Source of the DNA: an uncultured Colwellia sp.
Lineage (GTDB): Bacteria > Pseudomonadota > Gammaproteobacteria > Enterobacterales > Alteromonadaceae
Reading direction: 5' to 3'
Length of the DNA stretch: 64,000 nt
Assembly (NCBI GenBank): GCA_913057925.1
Contig: CAJXPG010000003.1
Location: 1 to 64,000 of the forward strand
Below are positions 14 to 21,818 of this stretch, piece after piece; the stretch's first letter is position 1, and the number at the start of each line of letters is the position of its first letter. The notes beneath the pieces were generated by a model. It did not search any database and was not told the origin of the DNA. It saw nothing but the letters and a program-made list of their open reading frames with translations. A program made the translations under genes and the position numbers.

Positions 14-235
14 ACCATCGACCCAATAAGAAACAATCATCGATACTTCTGGAATAATTAACACTCTTCCACGAAATATGTCTCTTTTAACCCCCATTAG
101 CGGGTGATCTAGTAAGCTCTCAACTTTAGTCTCAATAATTTGATCAGTTTTTTCTGCGGCACTAGGGTTAAAATCAAAAAGAAACTCAAAGATTTTCTCA
201 CGATCATTTAGTGACTCTTCTTCCCAAAAAATCAT
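14..235 (-). CDS. RelE/ParE-family toxin, 3' end truncated by contig end
   Basis: Reverse strand reads MIFWEEESLNDREKIFEFLFDFNPSAAEKTDQIIETKVESLLDHPLMGVKRDIFRGRVLIIPEVSMIVSYWVDG; RelE/ParE-like; ATGA overlap with upstream antitoxin. Confidence 0.75.
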
Positions 236-525
236 GATTTATCTCTATTGCGAATTTTCTGTTTTCTTGCTTCCATCAAAGCTTTCGCATCATCATGTAC
301 AATAAAATTAGCTTTACCGTCATCAAACTTATCAAATGCGGCATTTATTTGTTCTGTTAGCCATACATTATGGCTCATAGTTTTACGTTGTTCTTCAGCT
401 AAGCTTTCAGCAAGTTCTCTACATGCGTCACTTAAAGTTCTACCTTGGCTTTCAGCCATTAGCTGCGCTAAACGCTTAGTTTCTTCATCAATTCTAAATT
501 GAATTCGAGTATCCATGTAAATCAC
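232..525 (-). CDS. RHH/DinJ-like antitoxin
   Basis: 97 aa, N-term MDTRIQFRIDEETKRLAQLMAESQGRTLSDACRELAE typical of ribbon-helix-helix antitoxins; overlaps toxin start. Confidence 0.75.
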   Translation of the reverse strand: MIYMDTRIQFRIDEETKRLAQLMAESQGRTLSDACRELAESLAEEQRKTMSHNVWLTEQINAAFDKFDDGKANFIVHDDAKALMEARKQKIRNRDKS

Positions 526-580
526 CTAAAAATTAATGTTGTACGCACAAATGTTAGCACCAGGGTTGTGTCAAGGCAAC

Positions 581-675
581 TAACAAGTTGCTTAAACGGA
601 CAAAAAACAGTTGGCTTGCCTCACTTCGTTCGTTATTGTAGCCAAACTATTTTTTTGCCTCGTATTGAGGCGTTA
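581..675 (+). repeat. attC-like integron recombination site 1
   Basis: TAACAAGTTGCTTAAACGGACAAAAAACAGTTGGCT...AGCCAAACT...GAGGCGTTA; TAACAA/GCGTTA ends, imperfect inner stem AGTTGGCT/AGCCAAACT. Confidence 0.8.
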
Positions 676-685
676 GTGAGTCAAT

Positions 686-985
686 ATGGAAGTTGCTGAA
701 AGTTCAAGAATTCCCCGAAGAGCATTTGTTATCCTAACATTACAATTAGTCGCTTGGGTTTTAATCTCAATTTCATTCTTCGAGGATTACAGCACAGGAA
801 ATGATGCGGCTGGAGCTGGAATGGCTCGTGGATTTGCTGTTTTTTTTGTTGTTGTTCCATGTATGACTTTTATATTTTTTACTACTTTTTACTTTTTAAA
901 ACAGAAGTTACCAACATGGTTTAGGTTTGTCTCTACATTTAACTACATATGCTTATTTATAACCTTTGCTGCGATAAACTGGTAA
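686..985 (+). CDS. Hypothetical membrane protein (cassette ORF)
   Basis: 99 aa with several hydrophobic segments, flanked by attC-like sites. Confidence 0.65.
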   Translation: MEVAESSRIPRRAFVILTLQLVAWVLISISFFEDYSTGNDAAGAGMARGFAVFFVVVPCMTFIFFTTFYFLKQKLPTWFRFVSTFNYICLFITFAAINW

Positions 986-994
986 TAAACTCAC

Positions 995-1090
995 TAACAA
1001 GGCAATTAAACGGACAAAAAACAGTTGGCTTTTTTCTCATTCGTCGCTTATTTTAACCAACGATTTTATTGCCTTTTAATGTGGGCGTTA
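995..1090 (+). repeat. attC-like integron recombination site 2
   Basis: TAACAAGGCAATTAAACGGACAAAAAACAGTTGG...CCAACG...GGGCGTTA; same layout and shared 'TTAAACGGACAAAAAACAGTTGGCTT' with site 1. Confidence 0.8.
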
Positions 1091-1113
1091 TACACGCTAA
1101 GGATTGTTACCTC

Positions 1114-1572
1114 ATGAATTGTATTTTTTGCGATATAGTTTCAGGGAAATCACCTTGCCATAGAGTTTGGGAAGACGCTGAGCATTTAGCCTTTTTATCA
1201 ATATTCCCTAACACCAAAGGCTTTACTGTTGTGATTCCAAAACAGCATTATTCTAGTTATGCGTTTGAACAAGAAGACGAAGTATTGTCAAAATTAACGT
1301 TAGCTACAAAGAAGGTTGCACTTCTTCTAGATAAAGCACTCGATGGCGTAGCACGCACAGGGATGTTTTATGAAGGCTATGGAGTGGATCATTTGCATAG
1401 TAAATTGTTTCCGATGCATGGAACTGGTGAACAAGCTGACTTTCAGCTAATTGAGTCTAAAGTTGATAAGTTTTACGAAAACTATGAAGGGCATTTGTCA
1501 TCTCACGATTATAAACGCGCTGATGATGATCAATTAGCACGACTTGCTGCTTATGTGCAGTCGTGCGAATAA
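1114..1572 (+). CDS. HIT family protein (cassette ORF)
   Basis: MNCIFCDIVSGKSPCHRVWED... and DHLHSKLFPMHG; ORF-track start at 1069 lies inside attC, so ATG at 1114 is preferred. Confidence 0.8.
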   Translation: MNCIFCDIVSGKSPCHRVWEDAEHLAFLSIFPNTKGFTVVIPKQHYSSYAFEQEDEVLSKLTLATKKVALLLDKALDGVARTGMFYEGYGVDHLHSKLFPMHGTGEQADFQLIESKVDKFYENYEGHLSSHDYKRADDDQLARLAAYVQSCE

Positions 1573-1660
1573 CAAGCTGCTTAGAGGGACACTTACAGTT
1601 TACTCGCGCGCCGCGTAGTTTAGCAAATTGTACTTAGCCGCTTTGCAAAACGTTCGCTTT
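1570..1660 (+). repeat. Degenerate attC-like site 3
   Basis: TAACAAGCTGCTTAGAGGGACA 5' half present; no clear GTTA 3' end. Confidence 0.5.
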
Positions 1661-1677
1661 CTTTCAAGGACAGGTGT

Positions 1678-2496
1678 ATGTTTCAAAAGTTTTTAGTTTC
1701 TATTTGCCTTTGTATTTTTTGCTTTTCTGTTTCAGCTGAATCAATAATAGTGAATCAAGCCGAATTGGCATACGAAATTAAAGGTGATGGAGAAAACATC
1801 ATATTTTTTGAAGCTGGTGCTATTTCAGGGATGTCAGGTTGGGATTCAATCTGGGGTAACCTTCCCCCAAATACCACTGCGGTAAGATATTCGAGAAGAG
1901 GCGAAGGGAAGTCCTCTTCTTGTGTTGGTGACTTAACATCAAGTGATTATGTTAGGGACGCTGAAGAGTTAATTACCTTACTCAAAATTAACAAACCCAT
2001 CATTTATGTTTCTCATTCATATGGAGGGAAAATTGCGAGGGAGTTCGCAGCTAAAAATCCAGATAAGATTTCAGCTTTGTTGTTTGTCGATCCTAGTAAC
2101 CCAAGAGATGTTGAAATTATCGAAAAACTAGATCCTATAAATGGAAAGGAATCTAATGAGAAGATGAAACAAACTGATATAAAAATGGGAGAGGAAAATA
2201 ACTGGTGCTTAATAAATGACATTTGGGATAAAAAGCCTTCCTTAGGTTACGGTGATATTAAAAACATTCCTGTAACACTGATTGCTGGAGTGAAAAAATT
2301 TAAAAATCCAGAGCGCCTTTTTGACACAGATAAAGCACGTGAACTATGGGGTGAATTTCAATCAGAGTGGGTGCTTAAATTTCCAAAAGGAAAAGCGGTT
2401 ATGGCTAATAAAAGTGGTCACTTTGTTCAAAATGATGAACCAGAATTGGTTATTACTGAATTAGAGAAGTTAATAATAAGAGTAAACGAAAACTAG
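1678..2496 (+). CDS. Secreted alpha/beta hydrolase (cassette ORF)
   Basis: N-terminal signal peptide; VSHSYGGKIARE nucleophile elbow; C-term SGHFVQNDEPE catalytic His context. Confidence 0.8.
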   Translation: MFQKFLVSICLCIFCFSVSAESIIVNQAELAYEIKGDGENIIFFEAGAISGMSGWDSIWGNLPPNTTAVRYSRRGEGKSSSCVGDLTSSDYVRDAEELITLLKINKPIIYVSHSYGGKIAREFAAKNPDKISALLFVDPSNPRDVEIIEKLDPINGKESNEKMKQTDIKMGEENNWCLINDIWDKKPSLGYGDIKNIPVTLIAGVKKFKNPERLFDTDKARELWGEFQSEWVLKFPKGKAVMANKSGHFVQNDEPELVITELEKLIIRVNEN

Positions 2497-2519
2497 TAAG
2501 CGCATTAAGACGGGACTGC
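2497..2519 (+). repeat. Truncated attC 5' half
   Basis: TAAGCGCATTAAGACGGGACTG resembles the 5' half of Vibrio-type attC sites; no 3' half. Confidence 0.45.
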
Positions 2520-2771
2520 TAATTTTACATAACCAATATTAAGAAATCTGGTTGTCTCATTTTCAATGATTGCAGCAACAACAACCCCAACGCCGAGTTT
2601 CTCAATATTAATTTTATGATTGATAATGTGCTTAAGGGCTACAACATCACTTGATGCTTGGCTAGCAGCAGAGCAAAAGATAATAAATAGTGTGATTAGT
2701 ACAGTGGCCAGTGCGGACGTTGATTTCTTTTTAGTTGGAGTATTCATGTTGCAATTTCCTTTAGGTAGCAC
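2505..2771 (-). pseudogene. N-terminal fragment of a serine hydrolase (beta-lactamase class C-like), truncated at integron junction
   Basis: Signal peptide then VVALKHIINHKINIEKLGVGVVVAAIIENETTRFLNIGYVK, like the N-term of class C-type serine hydrolases; no SxxK domain; last codons lie in the attC remnant. Confidence 0.5.
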
Positions 2772-2864: not shown

Positions 2865-3464
2865 CTAGCTCAGTTCGGCTAAGCGCTGTTCAATTTTTTT
2901 AAGTAGTGGGCCAAACTTCTTTCTTGCCGCACGTTTATTGAGTAAGTATATGCCCACGATAAGTAGTACTAAACAACCATAATAAATGGTTAAGTGTTGA
3001 TTGAGTTGTGGCAATCCAGTTTCGGTTACTGTACTACCCAAGGTTATCAGTACGATTGCCGTTGTTAACGGCGCTATGTACCACCAGACAATGGTTTCTA
3101 ATAATTGCTTTTGTTGTGCTATTTTTTGTTTTTCACTCAGTAAGAAATCTTTTAAGCCGGTATTTTTTTGTGGCTTGATTTTTTTAGCACTGATTAATTT
3201 ATAAGGAATAAAGCAACACGAGACTATCGCGATAACTAAACCTATGGTTTGCATAGCACTGACACTGGTAAACAAGCCATAAATCCATACTGGAATTAAC
3301 AATACTGCGATGGCAATTTCTAATAGATCGCGGCGCTTTATTTCTTTATCTATCTTGGTTGTTTCTTTCTCTAACATAGCTATAACCTCACTAAGGTTTT
3401 CAGGTGTGGTAGAAGAGCTTATATTTTGTTGCCAGTCTTGTTTTAAATCATCGAGCTTCATCAT
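2865..3464 (-). CDS. Membrane protein, putative anti-sigma-like partner of the sigma factor
   Basis: 199 aa, several TM segments, start overlaps stop of upstream sigma factor gene. Confidence 0.5.
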   Translation of the reverse strand: MMKLDDLKQDWQQNISSSTTPENLSEVIAMLEKETTKIDKEIKRRDLLEIAIAVLLIPVWIYGLFTSVSAMQTIGLVIAIVSCCFIPYKLISAKKIKPQKNTGLKDFLLSEKQKIAQQKQLLETIVWWYIAPLTTAIVLITLGSTVTETGLPQLNQHLTIYYGCLVLLIVGIYLLNKRAARKKFGPLLKKIEQRLAELS

Positions 3465-3940
3465 TACTCTCCTATAAATTGGGTTTCAAATTCATTTTTT
3501 ATGCGTTTTATTCTTGATCTAACGGCATTAGCGCTAATACCTGCGACCTCGGCACTGTCCTCTGAAGAGAGACCGTCAAGGTACATCATTAAAATACTAG
3601 CGTCGGTATCGTTTAAGCTGTTCATAAAAGAATTCAAGATATCTGCCTGACAGTTCTCCTGTGCTGGTTGGCTTTGTGTTAATACTTTATGCAAAGCAGA
3701 CTGTTTTATTTCTTTGTGCTTAATTGAGCTACGTACAAAAGTGCATGCAGTATTAAGCGCCACTTTATAAACCCAAGTCTCGCGTTGAGCTTGCCCGTCA
3801 AAAGAGTCAAAACTGCGCCAAAGTTGCAACAATATCTCCTGATACATGTCATCAAATTCACCTGAGTGACAATAACGAGACGCAATGTAGCGAATGCGTC
3901 CTTGGTTATTTATAATCACTTGTTCAAATTCTTTATGCAT
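3464..3940 (-). CDS. ECF RNA polymerase sigma factor
   Basis: YIASRYCHSGEFDDMYQEILLQLWRSFDSFDG...TWVYKVALNTA...EVAGISANAVRSRIKRIK sigma-70 regions 2 and 4. Confidence 0.88.
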   Translation of the reverse strand: MHKEFEQVIINNQGRIRYIASRYCHSGEFDDMYQEILLQLWRSFDSFDGQAQRETWVYKVALNTACTFVRSSIKHKEIKQSALHKVLTQSQPAQENCQADILNSFMNSLNDTDASILMMYLDGLSSEDSAEVAGISANAVRSRIKRIKNEFETQFIGE

Positions 3941-5907: not shown

Positions 5908-6456
5908 ATGAAATTAACCATAGCATTACTGTCCTTTGCCATACTTTTCGGCTGCTCAGGTGAGGGTAGCTCAGGTGAAGATAAATCTAATCAGTTCGTA
6001 AACGAAAGCACAAACAAGGAGTCTAGGGGGGAGGGGATTTTTGGTAAGAAGGAAGAAAAAAACTATGTGATTTCTTCGCCACTTGAAGGTGTGTTAGTAA
6101 GTGACGGAAAACCACTCGCTAATACTAAAATTATTCGTCGCTTACGCTGGAATGGTAATGAAGAAGGTATTTTTGATGAGTTTGTCACTGATGATAACGG
6201 CTATTTTGATATACCTATTCACGAAGAGTTCTTAGCATTAGGGAAGTTAACTGAGTTTGTTGGCACCATAACCCTATATGTTGACTCAATTAATGACGAT
6301 AATTTTTTTTACCATACCTCAAAGCGAAGTGCAGAAATTTATTCTGATATCAAAGAGCCCTTATTAGAACTTGTCTGTGATATGGCCCAAGAAGAAGCCT
6401 TGGTCGATATCTCCCGAGTTGGGATTTATTCTCGCTGTAAATGGAAAGGGTTGTAG
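5908..6456 (+). CDS. Lipoprotein, paralog 1
   Basis: MKLTIALLSFAILFGCSG lipobox; high similarity to next ORF. Confidence 0.8.
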   Translation: MKLTIALLSFAILFGCSGEGSSGEDKSNQFVNESTNKESRGEGIFGKKEEKNYVISSPLEGVLVSDGKPLANTKIIRRLRWNGNEEGIFDEFVTDDNGYFDIPIHEEFLALGKLTEFVGTITLYVDSINDDNFFYHTSKRSAEIYSDIKEPLLELVCDMAQEEALVDISRVGIYSRCKWKGL

Positions 6457-6621
6457 CGTGATTAAATTCGGTGAGAGTTGTGATTACTCTTTTTATTAGC
6501 TTGAAACTGAATTTATTAACTTTGTAAAATCAATTAACTAATAATTGTAAATAACATGTAAAATGTTTAAGCTTGCTGTTCGCTTATGTAAACTTACCTA
6601 AAAAGTGCGTGGCAGAAAAAC

Positions 6622-7170
6622 ATGAAGTTAACCATAGGATTATTGTCCTTTATCATACTTTTGGGGTGCTCAGGTGAGAGTAACTCAAGTTTTGATAAGT
6701 CAACTCAGGCAATGAATGAACCGGAAAACAAGGAATCAAAAATGTTAGGGATCTTTGGCAAAACGGAGCATGAAAATTATACCGTTTCATCCCCCCTTGA
6801 AGGTAGGCTAATTAAGGGTGGTAAGCCTATGGCTAATACTAAAATTATTAGACGACTTCGTTGGAATGGAAATGACGAAGGAGTGGTTGATGAATTCCTC
6901 ACTGATGATAAAGGTTATTTTTCAATCCCTGCCCGAGAAGAATTGTTATCGTTAGGGAAGTTGACTCAGTTTGTTAGTAATGTAGAGCTATTTTCTGAGT
7001 CAGAGTCCGATGAGAATTTTTTCTGGTACAGTAACAAATTTAGTGGTGAAGTCTATTCTGACTTTGAAACCCCAATCAAAGAACTCGTCTGTGATATCAG
7101 TGATAAAGAGAGCCGCGTGGAGTTAAAACACGGAGCTATTTTTTCTAAGTGTAAGTGGCAAAAAAGTTAA
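6622..7170 (+). CDS. Lipoprotein, paralog 2
   Basis: MKLTIGLLSFIILLGCSG lipobox; shared ENY-SSPLEG-GKP-ANTKIIRRLRWNGN-EG core. Confidence 0.8.
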   Translation: MKLTIGLLSFIILLGCSGESNSSFDKSTQAMNEPENKESKMLGIFGKTEHENYTVSSPLEGRLIKGGKPMANTKIIRRLRWNGNDEGVVDEFLTDDKGYFSIPAREELLSLGKLTQFVSNVELFSESESDENFFWYSNKFSGEVYSDFETPIKELVCDISDKESRVELKHGAIFSKCKWQKS

Positions 7171-7192
7171 ATAAAAATCTAAGGAATAGAAA

Positions 7193-8356
7193 ATGGCAAA
7201 TGAATTGCAACCCCATCAAGTAGCAAAAATAGCGGAAGAAGTTTATGATGTTAATTCCGGTAATCTAAGGGCTTTTAAGGCATTCCTCTCCAATGGCTTA
7301 TTCTCGCAGAAAGATAATTCAACCTTAAAACTCAATGCAACAGTGGGCGGAAAGCTTCTTCTTTCTGCACAAGATGGTTTTGGTGTTTGCGCTATGGGCG
7401 GAAAAGGTTATGAAAAGGATGTATTCCTTATTTTTCGAGGAACGACTACCGCTAATAATAAAGCTGACTTTGTTACAGATGGCAATATTGGCCTAACTAG
7501 ATCTAGTTCAGGCCATATGGTGCATGTTGGATTTAACGATACTTTTACTAGCATGTTACCGCAAATCAGATCCTTTTTAGCCAAGAATAAAGTCACTGGT
7601 ACAGTGCACTGCATCGGACACAGTTTGGGCGGCGCAGTCGCATCGCTTGCGGCAGATTGGTTAAAGAAAAAAGCAGGTAAAAGTGTCAAGTTATACACCT
7701 TTGGTGCCCCGCGAGTGGGTACTTACTTTTTCGCAAAAAGTACTACTGATACGCTAAAGGTAGAGAATATTCACCGAGTTTATCATCAGACTGATCCTGT
7801 ACCTATGGTTGCATTATTTCCATTTATGCAGGCCCCATATAATTCAAGCGGGCATTTCATATCCTCATCAGAACTGGTTTTTAGTGGTGCGGCTCATAAA
7901 ATGGGGAAGTACATTGACTCAGTGAGAAGTAAAAACTGGACGGCACTTAATAGTGTTCCAGATGAGCCTTATGACGTTGAGTGGGCAATTGAACAATGGT
8001 TAAACTCTAAAAGGTATACTAATGCAGACTCTCCAACCTTTTTACGCTGGGCTGAGTCGGCACTTATTTATGTACTTAAGAAGATTGGCATAAACGTTGT
8101 TGCAGCATTACAAGGTGCAGTGATGGGTATTTCTACCTTGGCAGATAAACTTGCGTATATACTCTCTAAAGGTATAGATTTAGCTGATAATATTAGCTAT
8201 TGGGTAATTCGTTTTATGCGCCGAATTATGCAAGCTTTAGGCATGAAAGTCGCCGAGAAAAAAGAAGAGTTAACTCGAAGTCTTATTCGTACTGCATTGT
8301 TACGCTTAACTAGAAAAAACTACGATAACGCACAACGCGCTATTCGCAAGATTTAG
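7193..8356 (+). CDS. Class 3 lipase family protein
   Basis: VHCIGHSLGGAVASLAADWL nucleophile elbow, TFGAPRVG, HQTDPVPMV; no N-terminal signal peptide. Confidence 0.88.
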   Translation: MANELQPHQVAKIAEEVYDVNSGNLRAFKAFLSNGLFSQKDNSTLKLNATVGGKLLLSAQDGFGVCAMGGKGYEKDVFLIFRGTTTANNKADFVTDGNIGLTRSSSGHMVHVGFNDTFTSMLPQIRSFLAKNKVTGTVHCIGHSLGGAVASLAADWLKKKAGKSVKLYTFGAPRVGTYFFAKSTTDTLKVENIHRVYHQTDPVPMVALFPFMQAPYNSSGHFISSSELVFSGAAHKMGKYIDSVRSKNWTALNSVPDEPYDVEWAIEQWLNSKRYTNADSPTFLRWAESALIYVLKKIGINVVAALQGAVMGISTLADKLAYILSKGIDLADNISYWVIRFMRRIMQALGMKVAEKKEELTRSLIRTALLRLTRKNYDNAQRAIRKI

Positions 8357-10065: not shown

Positions 10066-10785
10066 TTTTAAGTGACGGCGCGAAATTAGCACTAAAGCAA
10101 ATAGAGATAATGCGAAAGTTGACGGCTCAGGGATATCGGTTACTGAAGTATCGTTTAGTTTAAATAGAGAAACATTATCTATTAAGCCACCAACAGAGTT
10201 TTGTTTACCAAAAGCGGCAAAACTTAAATTCATCGACTCAGCTTCAGCAGTCAACACAATTGATTGCACAGTCCAATCAGGTTTGTTTTTTCTTTCACCG
10301 TCAACACTTAGGGCGGTATCCATGGTGAAATCAAATGCTAAATCTTGATCGTACCAAAAGACATTGATGCCATTATCGTTTCTTTTATTCGTTCTGGGCT
10401 TATATGAGAACTCTAATAAATATTGTGCGCCCAAGGTTAATTGTTCAAGGGATTGTGTCATTGCAGCATTAGATGAACCACGAGGGTGGGAGTCTAGTTC
10501 AATATGCTGGTTACCATCAGCCGATGTTGTTACGATATTTTTTTGCAGCTCTATGCCATTACCTGCGCTTGTTACCCACCCAGGCAATGCGTAGAATACA
10601 TCCCAGCCGCGCTTTTTGTGAGAAAAGTCTTGTAAGTCTGTATTGTGTACCAGACCTTGAGACGAAGAGTTATCAGCGAAAACTACTTGTTCAAAGCTGC
10701 CATTGGTGATCAATGAAGCATGAGTCGATATGCTGGAAAACAGCAAAGCGCTTGCAAGCAGTGATTTAGAGGTTCCTTTAAACAT
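10054..10785 (-). CDS. PEP-CTERM sorting domain-containing protein
   Basis: Signal peptide; C-term DIPEPSTFALSLFALVLISRRHLKNLT. Confidence 0.85.
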   Translation of the reverse strand: MFKGTSKSLLASALLFSSISTHASLITNGSFEQVVFADNSSSQGLVHNTDLQDFSHKKRGWDVFYALPGWVTSAGNGIELQKNIVTTSADGNQHIELDSHPRGSSNAAMTQSLEQLTLGAQYLLEFSYKPRTNKRNDNGINVFWYDQDLAFDFTMDTALSVDGERKNKPDWTVQSIVLTAEAESMNLSFAAFGKQNSVGGLIDNVSLFKLNDTSVTDIPEPSTFALSLFALVLISRRHLKNLT

Positions 10786-10969
10786 TATAGTTCTCCTAAT
10801 AATAAATTTAATGATAAGAATTATAATGATACGAACACATTGAATATATGGCTAAACTGTCCAGTTTGATCATTTCACTTTATTTTATCTAAACGTTAAC
10901 TGTTATACGCTGTTAATCCAGTTGAGTTAAAATGCGTCTGTTTTATAAACCAAATTGAAAATTTATTTT

Positions 10970-11602
10970 ATGATTACACTTTATTATATACATGATCCTA
11001 TGTGCAGCTGGTGTTGGGGCTATCGTCCAATCTGGGATGCATTACAGCGAGCCTTACCAAATGTTGTTGATGTTGTGTATGTTGCTGGCGGCTTAGCAAG
11101 TGACTCAAATGAAGCAATGCCCAAGGCGCAGCAACAAATGATTCAACAACACTGGCGAACTATTGAGAGTAAGTTAGGCACACGGTTTAACTTTAATTTT
11201 TGGCAAGAAAACACGCCAAGACGCTCAACGTTTAATGCGTGCCGAGCGGCAATTGCAGCAGATAAGCAGGGCTATCAAGCTCAGATGGTAGATGCTATTC
11301 AGCAAGCGTATTATTTGCGTGCGTTAAACCCTTCAGATGTTGAGGTCTTGATAACTTTAGCGAAAGAATTAAACGATAATTCAGCTGATTTTAATCTGGC
11401 AGCATTTATTAATAGCATTAACTCTGAAGATGTCGAGCAAGAGCTGCAAAAGCAAATTTCGCTTGCTCGGGCATTATCTCAACAAGGCTTTCCATCATTA
11501 GTGCTTGAGGTCAATGGTAAGCGTCAAGAAATACCGGTGAACTATACTGATCACCACATTACTCTGGATTTAATACAAGAGATCATTAACGGTAACTCAT
11601 AA
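10970..11602 (+). CDS. DsbA family protein
   Basis: YYIHDPMCSWCWGYRPIW CxxC motif; ...QGFPSLVLE. Confidence 0.85.
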   Translation: MITLYYIHDPMCSWCWGYRPIWDALQRALPNVVDVVYVAGGLASDSNEAMPKAQQQMIQQHWRTIESKLGTRFNFNFWQENTPRRSTFNACRAAIAADKQGYQAQMVDAIQQAYYLRALNPSDVEVLITLAKELNDNSADFNLAAFINSINSEDVEQELQKQISLARALSQQGFPSLVLEVNGKRQEIPVNYTDHHITLDLIQEIINGNS

Positions 11603-11645
11603 TATCAAGTCCCTATCTTATTTAGGGCAGGTGAAACTGTTAAAC

Positions 11646-11674
11646 AAAAAAGCGATGCTAGGCATCGCTTTTTT
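11646..11674. terminator. Bidirectional rho-independent terminator
   Basis: AAAAAAGCGATGCTAGGCATCGCTTTTTT. Confidence 0.85.
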
Positions 11675-11697
11675 GTGGTTATGATTAAGGACAAGAT

Positions 11698-13959
11698 TTA
11701 CATTTGCCACGCATAGCTGAACTTGGTAAATACTGCCCGTTCATCTCGCGTCAACTCAGCTAAGCTATCATCTTGAAAGCCGCCGTCTGAGTAGCCGACA
11801 AAAAACAGTGTTTGCGGGTTAATTTTATAGGAGTAAATTAGTTGGCTTGAGAAGAATTTATCGTTTTCATCAGGGCGATCTTCTATGTCGTCATAATCAT
11901 ACAAGTCTGCATCTCGGGCAATATCAGTATATTGCAGTACGAGCTTTAAGCGGCTGCGCATGCTGAATTGGTAACTTAAACGAATGTCAGCTTGGTGTGC
12001 GGTAAATAAGCGCCCGTCATCAACATCAAGGTGAGAATAATTGTAATTGATGCTGGCGTTGATATGACGATTAACATCCCATTCGGTAAATGCTTCAACC
12101 AATACGCCATCACCTAGTTGCGTGTTGGCATAATCTATTTGCTTACCTATGCGAAAGAAGCTACCTATTTGTGTATTGGCAACGGGTTTCATTTCCGCAT
12201 ACATCATAAACTGAGTTTCATCGAAGTATTGCTCGTCGTAAAGTTTCTCTCTATGGACAACACCAAAGTTAGTGAAAAACTGCTTTTGGCCTTCTAATGT
12301 GCCGTGAATCTCATATTCTTGTTCTAGCATCTTGCCGTCTTGGTCGTGGGTTTTATCCCAATCACCAAAATAGCCCCACTGAGTTAAGGTATCGTCACTA
12401 TCACCGTAGTATGTTCTACGGCCACCTAACACAACTCGCTCAATATTAGCGCGAGACTGAAAACCTAAGTCAGCGCGGAAATCCTCACCAATATTGGTGT
12501 AACCGGCTCTTAAATTGTAATCTCGGGTGCTGTGTTCATAATTGACACTAAAAGCGGTATCTCGTTGTTTTTCAGTGACATCGTAATCATCGATGATCAT
12601 TTGTGGGTTTTTACTATCGGATTGCGCCACTTGGTACTCAATAGTATCTGCCTGACTAAGCCAGTAGGTACCATCTAACGAGACTAACGTGTTGTGATAC
12701 TCGTCATTTTGACGATGAGTCATTAAAACACCGACGTTACTGCGTTCGCCCACATCCATTTTGTAGCGGCCAATGGCAACATTAGATGATTCATCTAGGG
12801 TCGCAACGTCTGAGCCTTGATTACCCGGCATTAAAAATGAAGTGTTATTATCGTTCGCTATCATTAAGCCATAACTGTGACCATCATTTTTACCGGTTAA
12901 CTTAACACCACCATCTGGATCGGCAATGTTACGGGTATGCACAAAATTAAAGTTTGTGGTGTCAAAATAAGAAGCACCATCTAAGAAGAAGGGTCTTTTT
13001 TCAGGATAAAATAAAGAATAAGTATTGTTAACGTCTAATTGACCAGCATCGGCTTCTACTTGAGAAAAGTCTGGGTTTAACGTGGCATTTAATACGATAT
13101 CTTGCGTTAAGCCCCAGCGAACATCGAGTCCTGGCTCTACCTCAATATCACCATTGTCCCACTCACCAGGCACATCAGGCTTTTCATCAGCTCTTGAAAC
13201 GGTAAGGGTTGGCGTTAACTGGAAATTTTTACCGGGTTTTATGTTTTCAAACCCCTCAACTTGATGAAATTGGCAAAGATTGCATTTAATGTTTCTATCA
13301 AAGATGTTTGTTGCCATTTGAAAGTTAACATCACGTGGGTAGTTTCGCCAACCAGCAATATTCCATACCAGTTTATCATCTGAATCAGGAAAGCGTAGCG
13401 CACTAAAAGGGATGCTGATTTCAACAACATAACCAAAATCAGTGATTTGTCCGGCACTATCCCAAATAGCATCCCAAGAGCTGTCTTCATCCCAACCATC
13501 GGTGTCATCCATTCGAACGTCTGCTTGAGCACCTAACGGATTGACAAAAAATTCATAACCACTGCGTTCATCATTGAAAGTATCAACTATGATGGCAACA
13601 TTATCATCTGACCAAAGGCTGTCTCTATCTCTTAACGAGGCTCTGATTTCTTCAGGGTTTGGATCATAAGCGATAAAAGCGACGTTAAAAGACTTGCCAT
13701 TTTCATAGAAAAACACTTCTGTTTTTACCGGAGGTGCCGTGCCTTCTCCCGGGTTGTTTTCATACTTTAGTTCCATTTTTGTCGCCGTTTTCCATACGGC
13801 TTCATCCATTTTGCCATCAACCTTGATGACCGCTTTGTCATGCGTTAATTGAAAGTGTTCACGCTCGCCTTCTTTAGCGGATAAACTAAGAGGCAGGCTG
13901 CAAGCGATGAGTAATAGAAAAGAGTGGCTAAGTTTTTGGCTGTGTTTCTTCAAAGACAT
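11698..13959 (-). CDS. CBM9-like / DUF5916 outer-membrane protein
   Basis: N-term KVDGKMDEAVWKTATKMEL; beta-barrel-like C-half ending FSYAWQM. Confidence 0.75.
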   Translation of the reverse strand: MSLKKHSQKLSHSFLLLIACSLPLSLSAKEGEREHFQLTHDKAVIKVDGKMDEAVWKTATKMELKYENNPGEGTAPPVKTEVFFYENGKSFNVAFIAYDPNPEEIRASLRDRDSLWSDDNVAIIVDTFNDERSGYEFFVNPLGAQADVRMDDTDGWDEDSSWDAIWDSAGQITDFGYVVEISIPFSALRFPDSDDKLVWNIAGWRNYPRDVNFQMATNIFDRNIKCNLCQFHQVEGFENIKPGKNFQLTPTLTVSRADEKPDVPGEWDNGDIEVEPGLDVRWGLTQDIVLNATLNPDFSQVEADAGQLDVNNTYSLFYPEKRPFFLDGASYFDTTNFNFVHTRNIADPDGGVKLTGKNDGHSYGLMIANDNNTSFLMPGNQGSDVATLDESSNVAIGRYKMDVGERSNVGVLMTHRQNDEYHNTLVSLDGTYWLSQADTIEYQVAQSDSKNPQMIIDDYDVTEKQRDTAFSVNYEHSTRDYNLRAGYTNIGEDFRADLGFQSRANIERVVLGGRRTYYGDSDDTLTQWGYFGDWDKTHDQDGKMLEQEYEIHGTLEGQKQFFTNFGVVHREKLYDEQYFDETQFMMYAEMKPVANTQIGSFFRIGKQIDYANTQLGDGVLVEAFTEWDVNRHINASINYNYSHLDVDDGRLFTAHQADIRLSYQFSMRSRLKLVLQYTDIARDADLYDYDDIEDRPDENDKFFSSQLIYSYKINPQTLFFVGYSDGGFQDDSLAELTRDERAVFTKFSYAWQM

Positions 13960-14330
13960 AGAGAGGTTTTCGTTTTATTTATTTTTATTACTGTTATTGT
14001 TGCTTTTTGGCGACAAATGGTTTGTTTCTAGATGTAACAAAAAGTAACAATATGACATGTTTGCTCTCATCACTGTTGCTTCTTCTCAATATAACTACGA
14101 CTTGTATCGTAGTTAAGGGCGATTAATTTTTTTTGCTAACTTACTGCTTTTTGCGAAGAAAAACCCCAAACTGGTATTAAATATTTCCTTAAAAACACTT
14201 TTTAAACCCTTGCTTTTGAGCTCAATAACTTATTGCACATTAGATGTTAGTTTATTGATTAGCACTGTTGTAATAAACTAGTCAACCCTAGGTAAGCCTA
14301 TATTTAACAGTAAGTTGGTCTGCTGGTGTT

Positions 14331-15521
14331 TTATTGTCTTTGACTTGGCTGATCGACTAACGCCACTGTTTGTGACCAAAATTGACTCGATATTTTACTG
14401 ATTGCATTTGATTCAGCATTGATAACGATAGCAAAACCAATATCTAGATCAGGAGAGTAACCTATGTCTGCTCGAAAACCAGCTACCCAGCCTGAATGAT
14501 AAATAATCGGTAAGTCGTTAAATTGGTAAATACGCCAACCATACCCGTAGTGAGCATCTGTTAAATGATCACGCCAAAACCGGCGGCGTAAGTCTTTCTT
14601 GGTTTTTATTCTTGGTATGGTGATTTCTGCTAAGAGCTCAGGGGAGAGAATATTAGGTTTATGACCTAAGTTGGCAATAAGCCATTTTGCTAAATCGCTA
14701 ATACTTGCATTGACACCGGCGGCAGGGGCTACTTTGTAAAAATCAGGCGTTACTTTCACGGTACGCCAAATGTACTTTTTAATATCACGCCCGTGTTTAT
14801 CTTTTTTGCCTGTTTTCACGCGTTTTCTTAGAATATGAGGTTTTGCAGTGTTTTCTTGTTTTTTAAAAGCATCAATACCCACTGAGGCATGGGTCATATT
14901 TAACGGTGAAAATACCCGCTCTTGTAATAAATTGGAATAACTTTTTTGCTGACTTGCTTCTATAGCCGGTTGTAATAAACCGTAAGCAATGTTTTGATAA
15001 CCATAACATTTTTCTGGCTGACAAATTGGAGTGATTCGATCAAAACGACTGATAATTTTTTCCATACTCCAGTTTTCATGTAGCAGGTTATCGTAAGCAT
15101 TTGGCATCAAGCCCGATGAGTGACTGAGTAAGTGTTTAAGTTGTATTTTATCTGCTGCCCCTTGCGTTGCTAACGCAAAGTTAGGTACATACTTGGTAAT
15201 TGGATCAGAAAGGTTTAATTGCTGCTCTTGGGCAAGCATTGTGGTAATAGTTGCTGCAAAGGTTTTAGAGACGGATGCGAGCCTAAAGACAGTGTGGTTA
15301 TTCACTCGAGCAGATTGTGCTATGTCGGTATAACCAAAGTTTTCTAGCGCGACTATTTTTCCGTCTTTTACTATGGTGTACGCACCACCCGGGATACTGT
15401 AATGGTTCAGTTGTTCATCAACTTGAGCTGAAAATTTTTCATTAAACTGTTTGATATTACTTGATAAAGCAGGGAGGGATAAGAGTGCTGCAAGTAAAAT
15501 ACAGGTATATCGAGAAAGCAT
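14331..15521 (-). CDS. Serine hydrolase (beta-lactamase class C family)
   Basis: RLASVSKTFAATITTML SxxK; HLLSHSSGL; HYGYGWRIY. Confidence 0.88.
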   Translation of the reverse strand: MLSRYTCILLAALLSLPALSSNIKQFNEKFSAQVDEQLNHYSIPGGAYTIVKDGKIVALENFGYTDIAQSARVNNHTVFRLASVSKTFAATITTMLAQEQQLNLSDPITKYVPNFALATQGAADKIQLKHLLSHSSGLMPNAYDNLLHENWSMEKIISRFDRITPICQPEKCYGYQNIAYGLLQPAIEASQQKSYSNLLQERVFSPLNMTHASVGIDAFKKQENTAKPHILRKRVKTGKKDKHGRDIKKYIWRTVKVTPDFYKVAPAAGVNASISDLAKWLIANLGHKPNILSPELLAEITIPRIKTKKDLRRRFWRDHLTDAHYGYGWRIYQFNDLPIIYHSGWVAGFRADIGYSPDLDIGFAIVINAESNAISKISSQFWSQTVALVDQPSQRQ

Positions 15522-15677
15522 AAAGGGCTCTTTAGGATGAGAAAAGGCGGCAATTCTAGCGATAAAGACAATAAATAAACAGTCACGCTAGCAAAATAGC
15601 GACTCCAAACAGTACAAAATTCTGAACATAATAAGGAACTTGGTTATAATCATCGCACTTTAGTGACGTAAAAAATA

Positions 15678-21678: not shown

Positions 21679-21818
21679 CGCTAAAAAACGATTTCAATAA
21701 AAGCCGAGAGATGTTTCTACTCGGTTTTTTTATGGAAAATTTTCACATTCTTTTTGAGTAACTTGTTTAAGCTGATAGAATTGCGCCATCTTAATATCCA
21801 ACAAAAGTTAACATAATT

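Follow-up and report, generated by a model that had tools for sequence, protein, structure and literature searches.

Predicted integron cassettes beside a truncated chromosomal gene at a contig end of an uncultured Colwellia sp.

The left end of contig CAJXPG010000003.1 from an uncultured Colwellia sp. (assembly GCA_913057925.1) can, judging from its sequence, be read with great confidence as a genuine piece of an integron: three attC sites and four captured genes or gene pairs, predicted to be cassettes (Table 1). The window analysed was the first 64,000 nucleotides of this contig. The stretch would almost certainly represent the distal part of the strain's integron cassette array; this confidence covers only the integron-array reading, and not the choice between a CALIN (an integrase-less cassette cluster) and the tail of an integrase-bearing integron. 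The reading rests on three attC sites in the same orientation, on the cassette boundaries, on the recurrence of single cassettes elsewhere, and on two integron integrase (IntI) genes of the genome that are preceded by SOS boxes. The array is an ordinary representative of an already known type, with a truncated chromosomal gene directly adjoining it. Circular free cassettes would have been put in by IntI, recombining the folded attC bottom strand at G^TT, and we infer that the two IntI enzymes of this genome act on the attC sites of this array. The distal end would have decayed, with a damaged attC3 and half of an attC4, and would continue into the truncated chromosomal gene.

Table 1. Features at the left end of the window, in order of position.
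Feature	Position	Strand	Evidence
Probable sequencing adapter residue	1-13	.	GTATAAGAGACAG matches end of Nextera/Tn5 mosaic end
ParE/RelE-type toxin gene, 3' end cut by contig end	14-235	-	ParE_toxin PF05016, 33.6 bits; TIGR02385 RelE/StbE, 43 bits, over cut-off
RelB/DinJ-type antitoxin gene	232-525	-	RelB PF04221, 21.6 bits, just under 22.4 cut-off; NF008412 weak match
attC1, attC of toxin-antitoxin cassette	578-678	+	70.9 bits, E = 2.6e-13 (covariance model); nhmmer E 4.9e-17
Cassette 2 (ORF99)	673-1087	+	TT of G^TTAGTG to G of attC2
ORF99, hydrophobic 99-aa protein	686-985	+	Homologs 70-72% identical, adjoining attC sites
attC2	992-1093	+	78.4 bits, E = 5.5e-15 (covariance model)
HIT-domain protein, 152 aa, cassette 3 gene	1114-1572	+	HIT PF01230, 33.2 bits
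attC3, other attC subtype of the genus	1567-1658	+	42.8 bits, E = 5.8e-7 (covariance model)
Secreted alpha/beta hydrolase, last (distal) cassette gene	1678-2496	+	Abhydrolase_1, 39.5 bits
Probable truncated 5' half of fourth attC, ~25 nt	2494-2522	+	ATTAAGACGGGACTGCTAA compared with known attCs
Truncated 5' remnant (~75 codons) of serine (beta-lactamase-fold) hydrolase gene	2523-2747	-	Sequence match to gene of relative G033
Anti-sigma-like membrane protein and ECF sigma factor, chromosomal flank	2865-3940	-	Sigma70_r2/r4

No attC family fired on the window in an Rfam search, and we therefore built our own attC model from integrase-adjacent arrays. Integron integrases (TIGR02249, E <= 1e-60) were present in 59 of the 80 genomes searched, and ten integrase-adjacent regions were fetched as the source of attC sites; these regions held 106 attC-type profile matches, in one orientation per array. 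The covariance model was trained on 42 attC sites beside integrases in relatives, none of them from the window. Two repeats of the window had served to seed the profile by which the training sites were located, so that the training set leans to this attC type; the integrase neighbourhood of the training sites is independent of that seeding. The consensus fold of the 42-site alignment has 19 pairs, 10 of which show two-sided compensatory changes. Run on both strands of the 64-kb window, the model found three sites, all inside 1.1 kb, where a CALIN is defined by at least two clustered attC sites. The next match (22 bits, E = 0.029), at 21683-21771 on the minus strand, is weak and probably due to chance.

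A preliminary description of this DNA had pointed to two ~95-bp repeats (581-675 and 995-1090) as attC sites, with one ORF in each interval. Both repeats are present, 72% identical over 92 nt, the ORF count is correct, and the covariance model proposed there as a check matched all three sites. Complete R''/R' cores (TAAC...GTTA) with G^TT are found in attC1 and attC2. In attC1 the R'' reads ...CAACTAAC, R' is GTTAGTG and G^TT lies at 672, with a bottom-strand fold at z = -2.1; in attC2 the corresponding elements are CACTAAC, GTTATAC and 1087, and the fold reaches z = -4.1. Copies 85-90% identical to attC2 occur in most genomes of the genus, several of them beside intI. The R'' core is kept in attC3, while its 3' core (R') is degenerate (GTTCGCT, non-consensus) and its single-strand fold (z = 0.35) does not surpass those of shuffled sequences; its subtype is also found beside integrases, with 93% identity over 57 nt (L043:2347-2403) and 86% over 86 nt (L046:5516-5601). 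The preliminary description had further reported two degenerate copies, of which the one after the HIT ORF is this real attC, whereas the one after the hydrolase shrinks to a stretch resembling a 5' half. There, ATTAAGACGGGACTGCTAA matches known attCs with a quality reached by none of 600 random 50-mers of the window. The covariance model and the HMM gave no match to this site at E up to 10, and a full fourth attC was rejected for want of a full-site match by either.

Cassette starts were compared with the cassette's own attC in 70 cassettes of relatives and 2 of the window. In these 72, the first bases that follow the cleaved G are reverse-complementary to those preceding that attC, the perfect run averaging 8.0 nt against 4.7 nt for shuffled partners (maximum 5.25 in 1000 shuffles); comparison with the neighbour's R' in the same cassettes gave a mean of 4.9 nt. 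The ORF99 cassette starts with GTTAGTGAGT, the exact reverse complement (10 of 10 bases) of ACTCACTAAC at its own attC, and in the HIT cassette the complementarity covers 5 bases only.

The cassettes recur singly in other Colwellia, with homology ending at or near the predicted recombination points. The toxin-antitoxin (TA) pair with attC1 (about 14-683) is found in G028, G010, G017, G018 and G022. Colwellia sp. E2M01 carries ORF99 together with both flanking attCs (572-1091), and C. echini has ORF99 as well. The HIT unit recurs in G018 (1089-1576), where the homology begins no more than two bases from the attC2 cleavage point and stops within the R'' of attC3. A fixed chromosomal gene order, named in the preliminary description as the finding that would count against it, was not encountered: in about 50 relatives each of the longest DNA matches is confined to a single cassette, and none of the matches to 1-2500 spans TA-ORF99-HIT-hydrolase or joins the genes of two of these cassettes, so that cassette order is not conserved.

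The preliminary description had the array at 581-2519, and it reaches further left than this. The antisense RelB/ParE pair (2-525), overlooked there, reads from its sequence as the first cassette in view, truncated where the contig stops. Its type II TA identity is indicated by family matches (the antitoxin just under the Pfam cut-off), by the overlap of the two genes, and by their forming one unit with attC. Stabilisation by post-segregational killing has been reported for the TA cassettes of Vibrio cholerae, and the RelB/ParE pair probably stabilises the present array in the same way. An account of TA cassettes with their own promoters describes them as typical of sedentary integrons (a passage of PMC11023631). 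A second TA cassette body lies elsewhere in the same genome (contig C13, L090:7156-7796; 84% DNA identity); it begins close to the predicted cassette start, reaches as far as the attC's AACAAG and has no recognisable attC. ORF99 had no match in Pfam, NCBIfam or PADLOC.

To the left, the contig probably stops for a technical reason, as suggested by the adapter-like sequence at its end, which the preliminary description had also overlooked; Nextera adapters, full-length or partial, stand at other contig ends of the same assembly. No contig of the assembly was found to carry the start of the TA cassette or the sequence left of the contig end. The other side of the insertion was also sought through the genes preceding TetR in relatives; this neighbourhood varies across the genus, and the commonest gene upstream of TetR was not found in this genome.

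The contig itself holds no integrase, attI or Pc promoter, which counts against the integron-array reading, as do the altered R' and the poor fold of attC3 and the short complementarity of the HIT cassette. The earlier statement that no integrase is visible therefore stands (there is no TIGR02249 match on the contig, which ends inside the array), and its wording, a CALIN or the edge of a chromosomal integron, was the right caution, as the integrases sit on other contigs and the contig break blocks a decision. The genome has two intact IntI genes, scoring 466.6 and 418.3 bits (TIGR02249, cut-off 265), each preceded by a CTG-N10-CAG LexA-type box; both (on C100 and C239) are near contig ends and are cut on the array side. 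In the presumed attI region upstream of the C239 intI, a ~30-bp palindrome (TTACTGAGA..TCTCAGTAATATCCAAT) occurs twice (L006:3250-3562, minus strand). The attC sites of the genome are distributed over at least nine contigs. Six array pieces extend beyond their contig at the integrase-proximal end: C3, which is the present contig, C122, C14, C75, C39 and C86. C6 and C76 do include the integrase side of their attC sites and have no intI there, an argument for real CALINs.

The likeliest status of the array is that of a CALIN; failing that, it would be the tail of one of the two arrays with an IntI gene. We favour the CALIN because there are only two intI ends for the six pieces missing their proximal end, so that at least four of the six are not integrase-linked, unless intI genes are missing from the 93%-complete assembly. 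It is less probable, but deserves weight, that the array belongs as the tail to a sedentary chromosomal integron that is intact, bears an integrase and was broken up by the assembly alone: both intact intI genes stand at contig ends with their arrays missing, the degenerate distal sites suit an old tail, and a passage by the authors of IntegronFinder 2.0 warns that integrons split in draft assemblies come to look like CALINs (PMC9024848). Besides the shortage of intI ends, the tail reading has against it that no linking sequence was found in the assembly and that in complete Colwelliaceae genomes numerous attC loci stand well away from intI. Single-contig genomes of the genus and family have their attC matches scattered over many loci. 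The complete Colwellia genome G032 has 83 attC model matches, a number that may include some palindromic sites twice, once per strand; the matches listed fall in at least 11 loci, and its integrase is only a C-terminal remnant (131 profile positions, with one stop codon).

A bolder and rather improbable reading is that the array is a CALIN that arose by IntI-driven insertion outside attI, and that Colwellia chromosomes are seeded with many such arrays. If this were true, Colwellia would be a natural test case for the origin and persistence of integrase-less cassette clusters. The by-products of the analysis may be more useful than the array itself, namely a tested attC model for the genus, the scattered attC clusters in complete genomes, and the case of a broken integrase in G032, and they bear on CALIN formation.

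On the right, the array meets the remnant of a serine hydrolase gene. The remnant is 45-48% identical to the N-terminus of a 469-aa protein whose complete gene, in one relative (G033:C7), comes directly after the same sigma/anti-sigma pair. Behind this pair G024 likewise has a weak match to the start of the hydrolase gene, and the pair itself is conserved in some relatives only. The rest of the truncated gene was not found in this genome, and this, together with the complete gene in G033, leads us to suggest that the array reaches into a formerly intact gene, with deletion. It is rather unlikely, though it would account for the gene remnant and for the intact, syntenic gene of G033, that IntI inserted the cassettes straight into a non-attI (attG-type) site inside the hydrolase gene and so made the CALIN in situ. 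Passages of two articles (PMC11023631 and PMC12901181) cite Loot et al. (2024) for integration at attG sites, a way in which cassettes become scattered. The right junction is half an attC, where a clean insertion would give a full one, and a later deletion must be assumed for the gene half that was not found. The present right junction is thus compatible with attG insertion and no demonstration of one. It is most improbable that the sites are REP or MITE-like structured repeats, dispersed among ordinary chromosomal genes. The palindromic form of the repeats and their many locations across the genus would fit this, but they form one-orientation arrays beside integron integrases in all ten integrase-adjacent regions read, carry R''/R' cores with G^TT, and delimit independently moving units.

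The array shares with sedentary chromosomal integrons, such as the Vibrio cholerae superintegron, the attC layout TAACAA...GCGTTA, one cassette per interval in one orientation, an antisense TA cassette, and other ORFs mostly of unknown function; it differs in its contig without integrase or attI, its short visible array (three attC) and its Colwellia attC sequence type. Like the CALINs of IntegronFinder, it has at least two attC sites and no intI visible in the 64-kb window, though a neighbouring intI may lie beyond the end of the contig, which falls inside the array. With attG-inserted cassettes (Loot et al., 2024) it has in common that a disrupted chromosomal gene adjoins it and that no attI is visible nearby, and it differs in that its junction is a truncated attC and that this assembly does not allow its insertion site to be reconstructed. 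The array enlarges the known integron cargo by Colwellia cassettes, among them those of the RelB/ParE pair and of an uncharacterised membrane protein.

Two tandem lipoprotein paralogs and a class-3-type lipase lie 3.4 kb from the array (5908-8356), without attC sites; in G010 weak homologs of one lipoprotein (25% identity) and of the lipase (33%) share a cassette flanked by two attC sites (L085:5603-7633). Several observations concern IS110-family elements. In G018 the HIT cassette body, without attC, is directly preceded by an end remnant of such an element (L082:7440-7928). A 60-nt conserved element beside this HIT homolog was considered as a group II intron end and rejected, as Rfam returned nothing and the copies read are ends of IS110-family elements. 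Three attC sites of the G010 array (L039:5404-6862, 10485-11939 and 14212-15669) are split by insertions of ~1.3-1.4 kb, and the one that was read encodes an IS110/IS1111-type transposase (341 aa). IS1111-attC elements are known, and the L039 insertion is alike.
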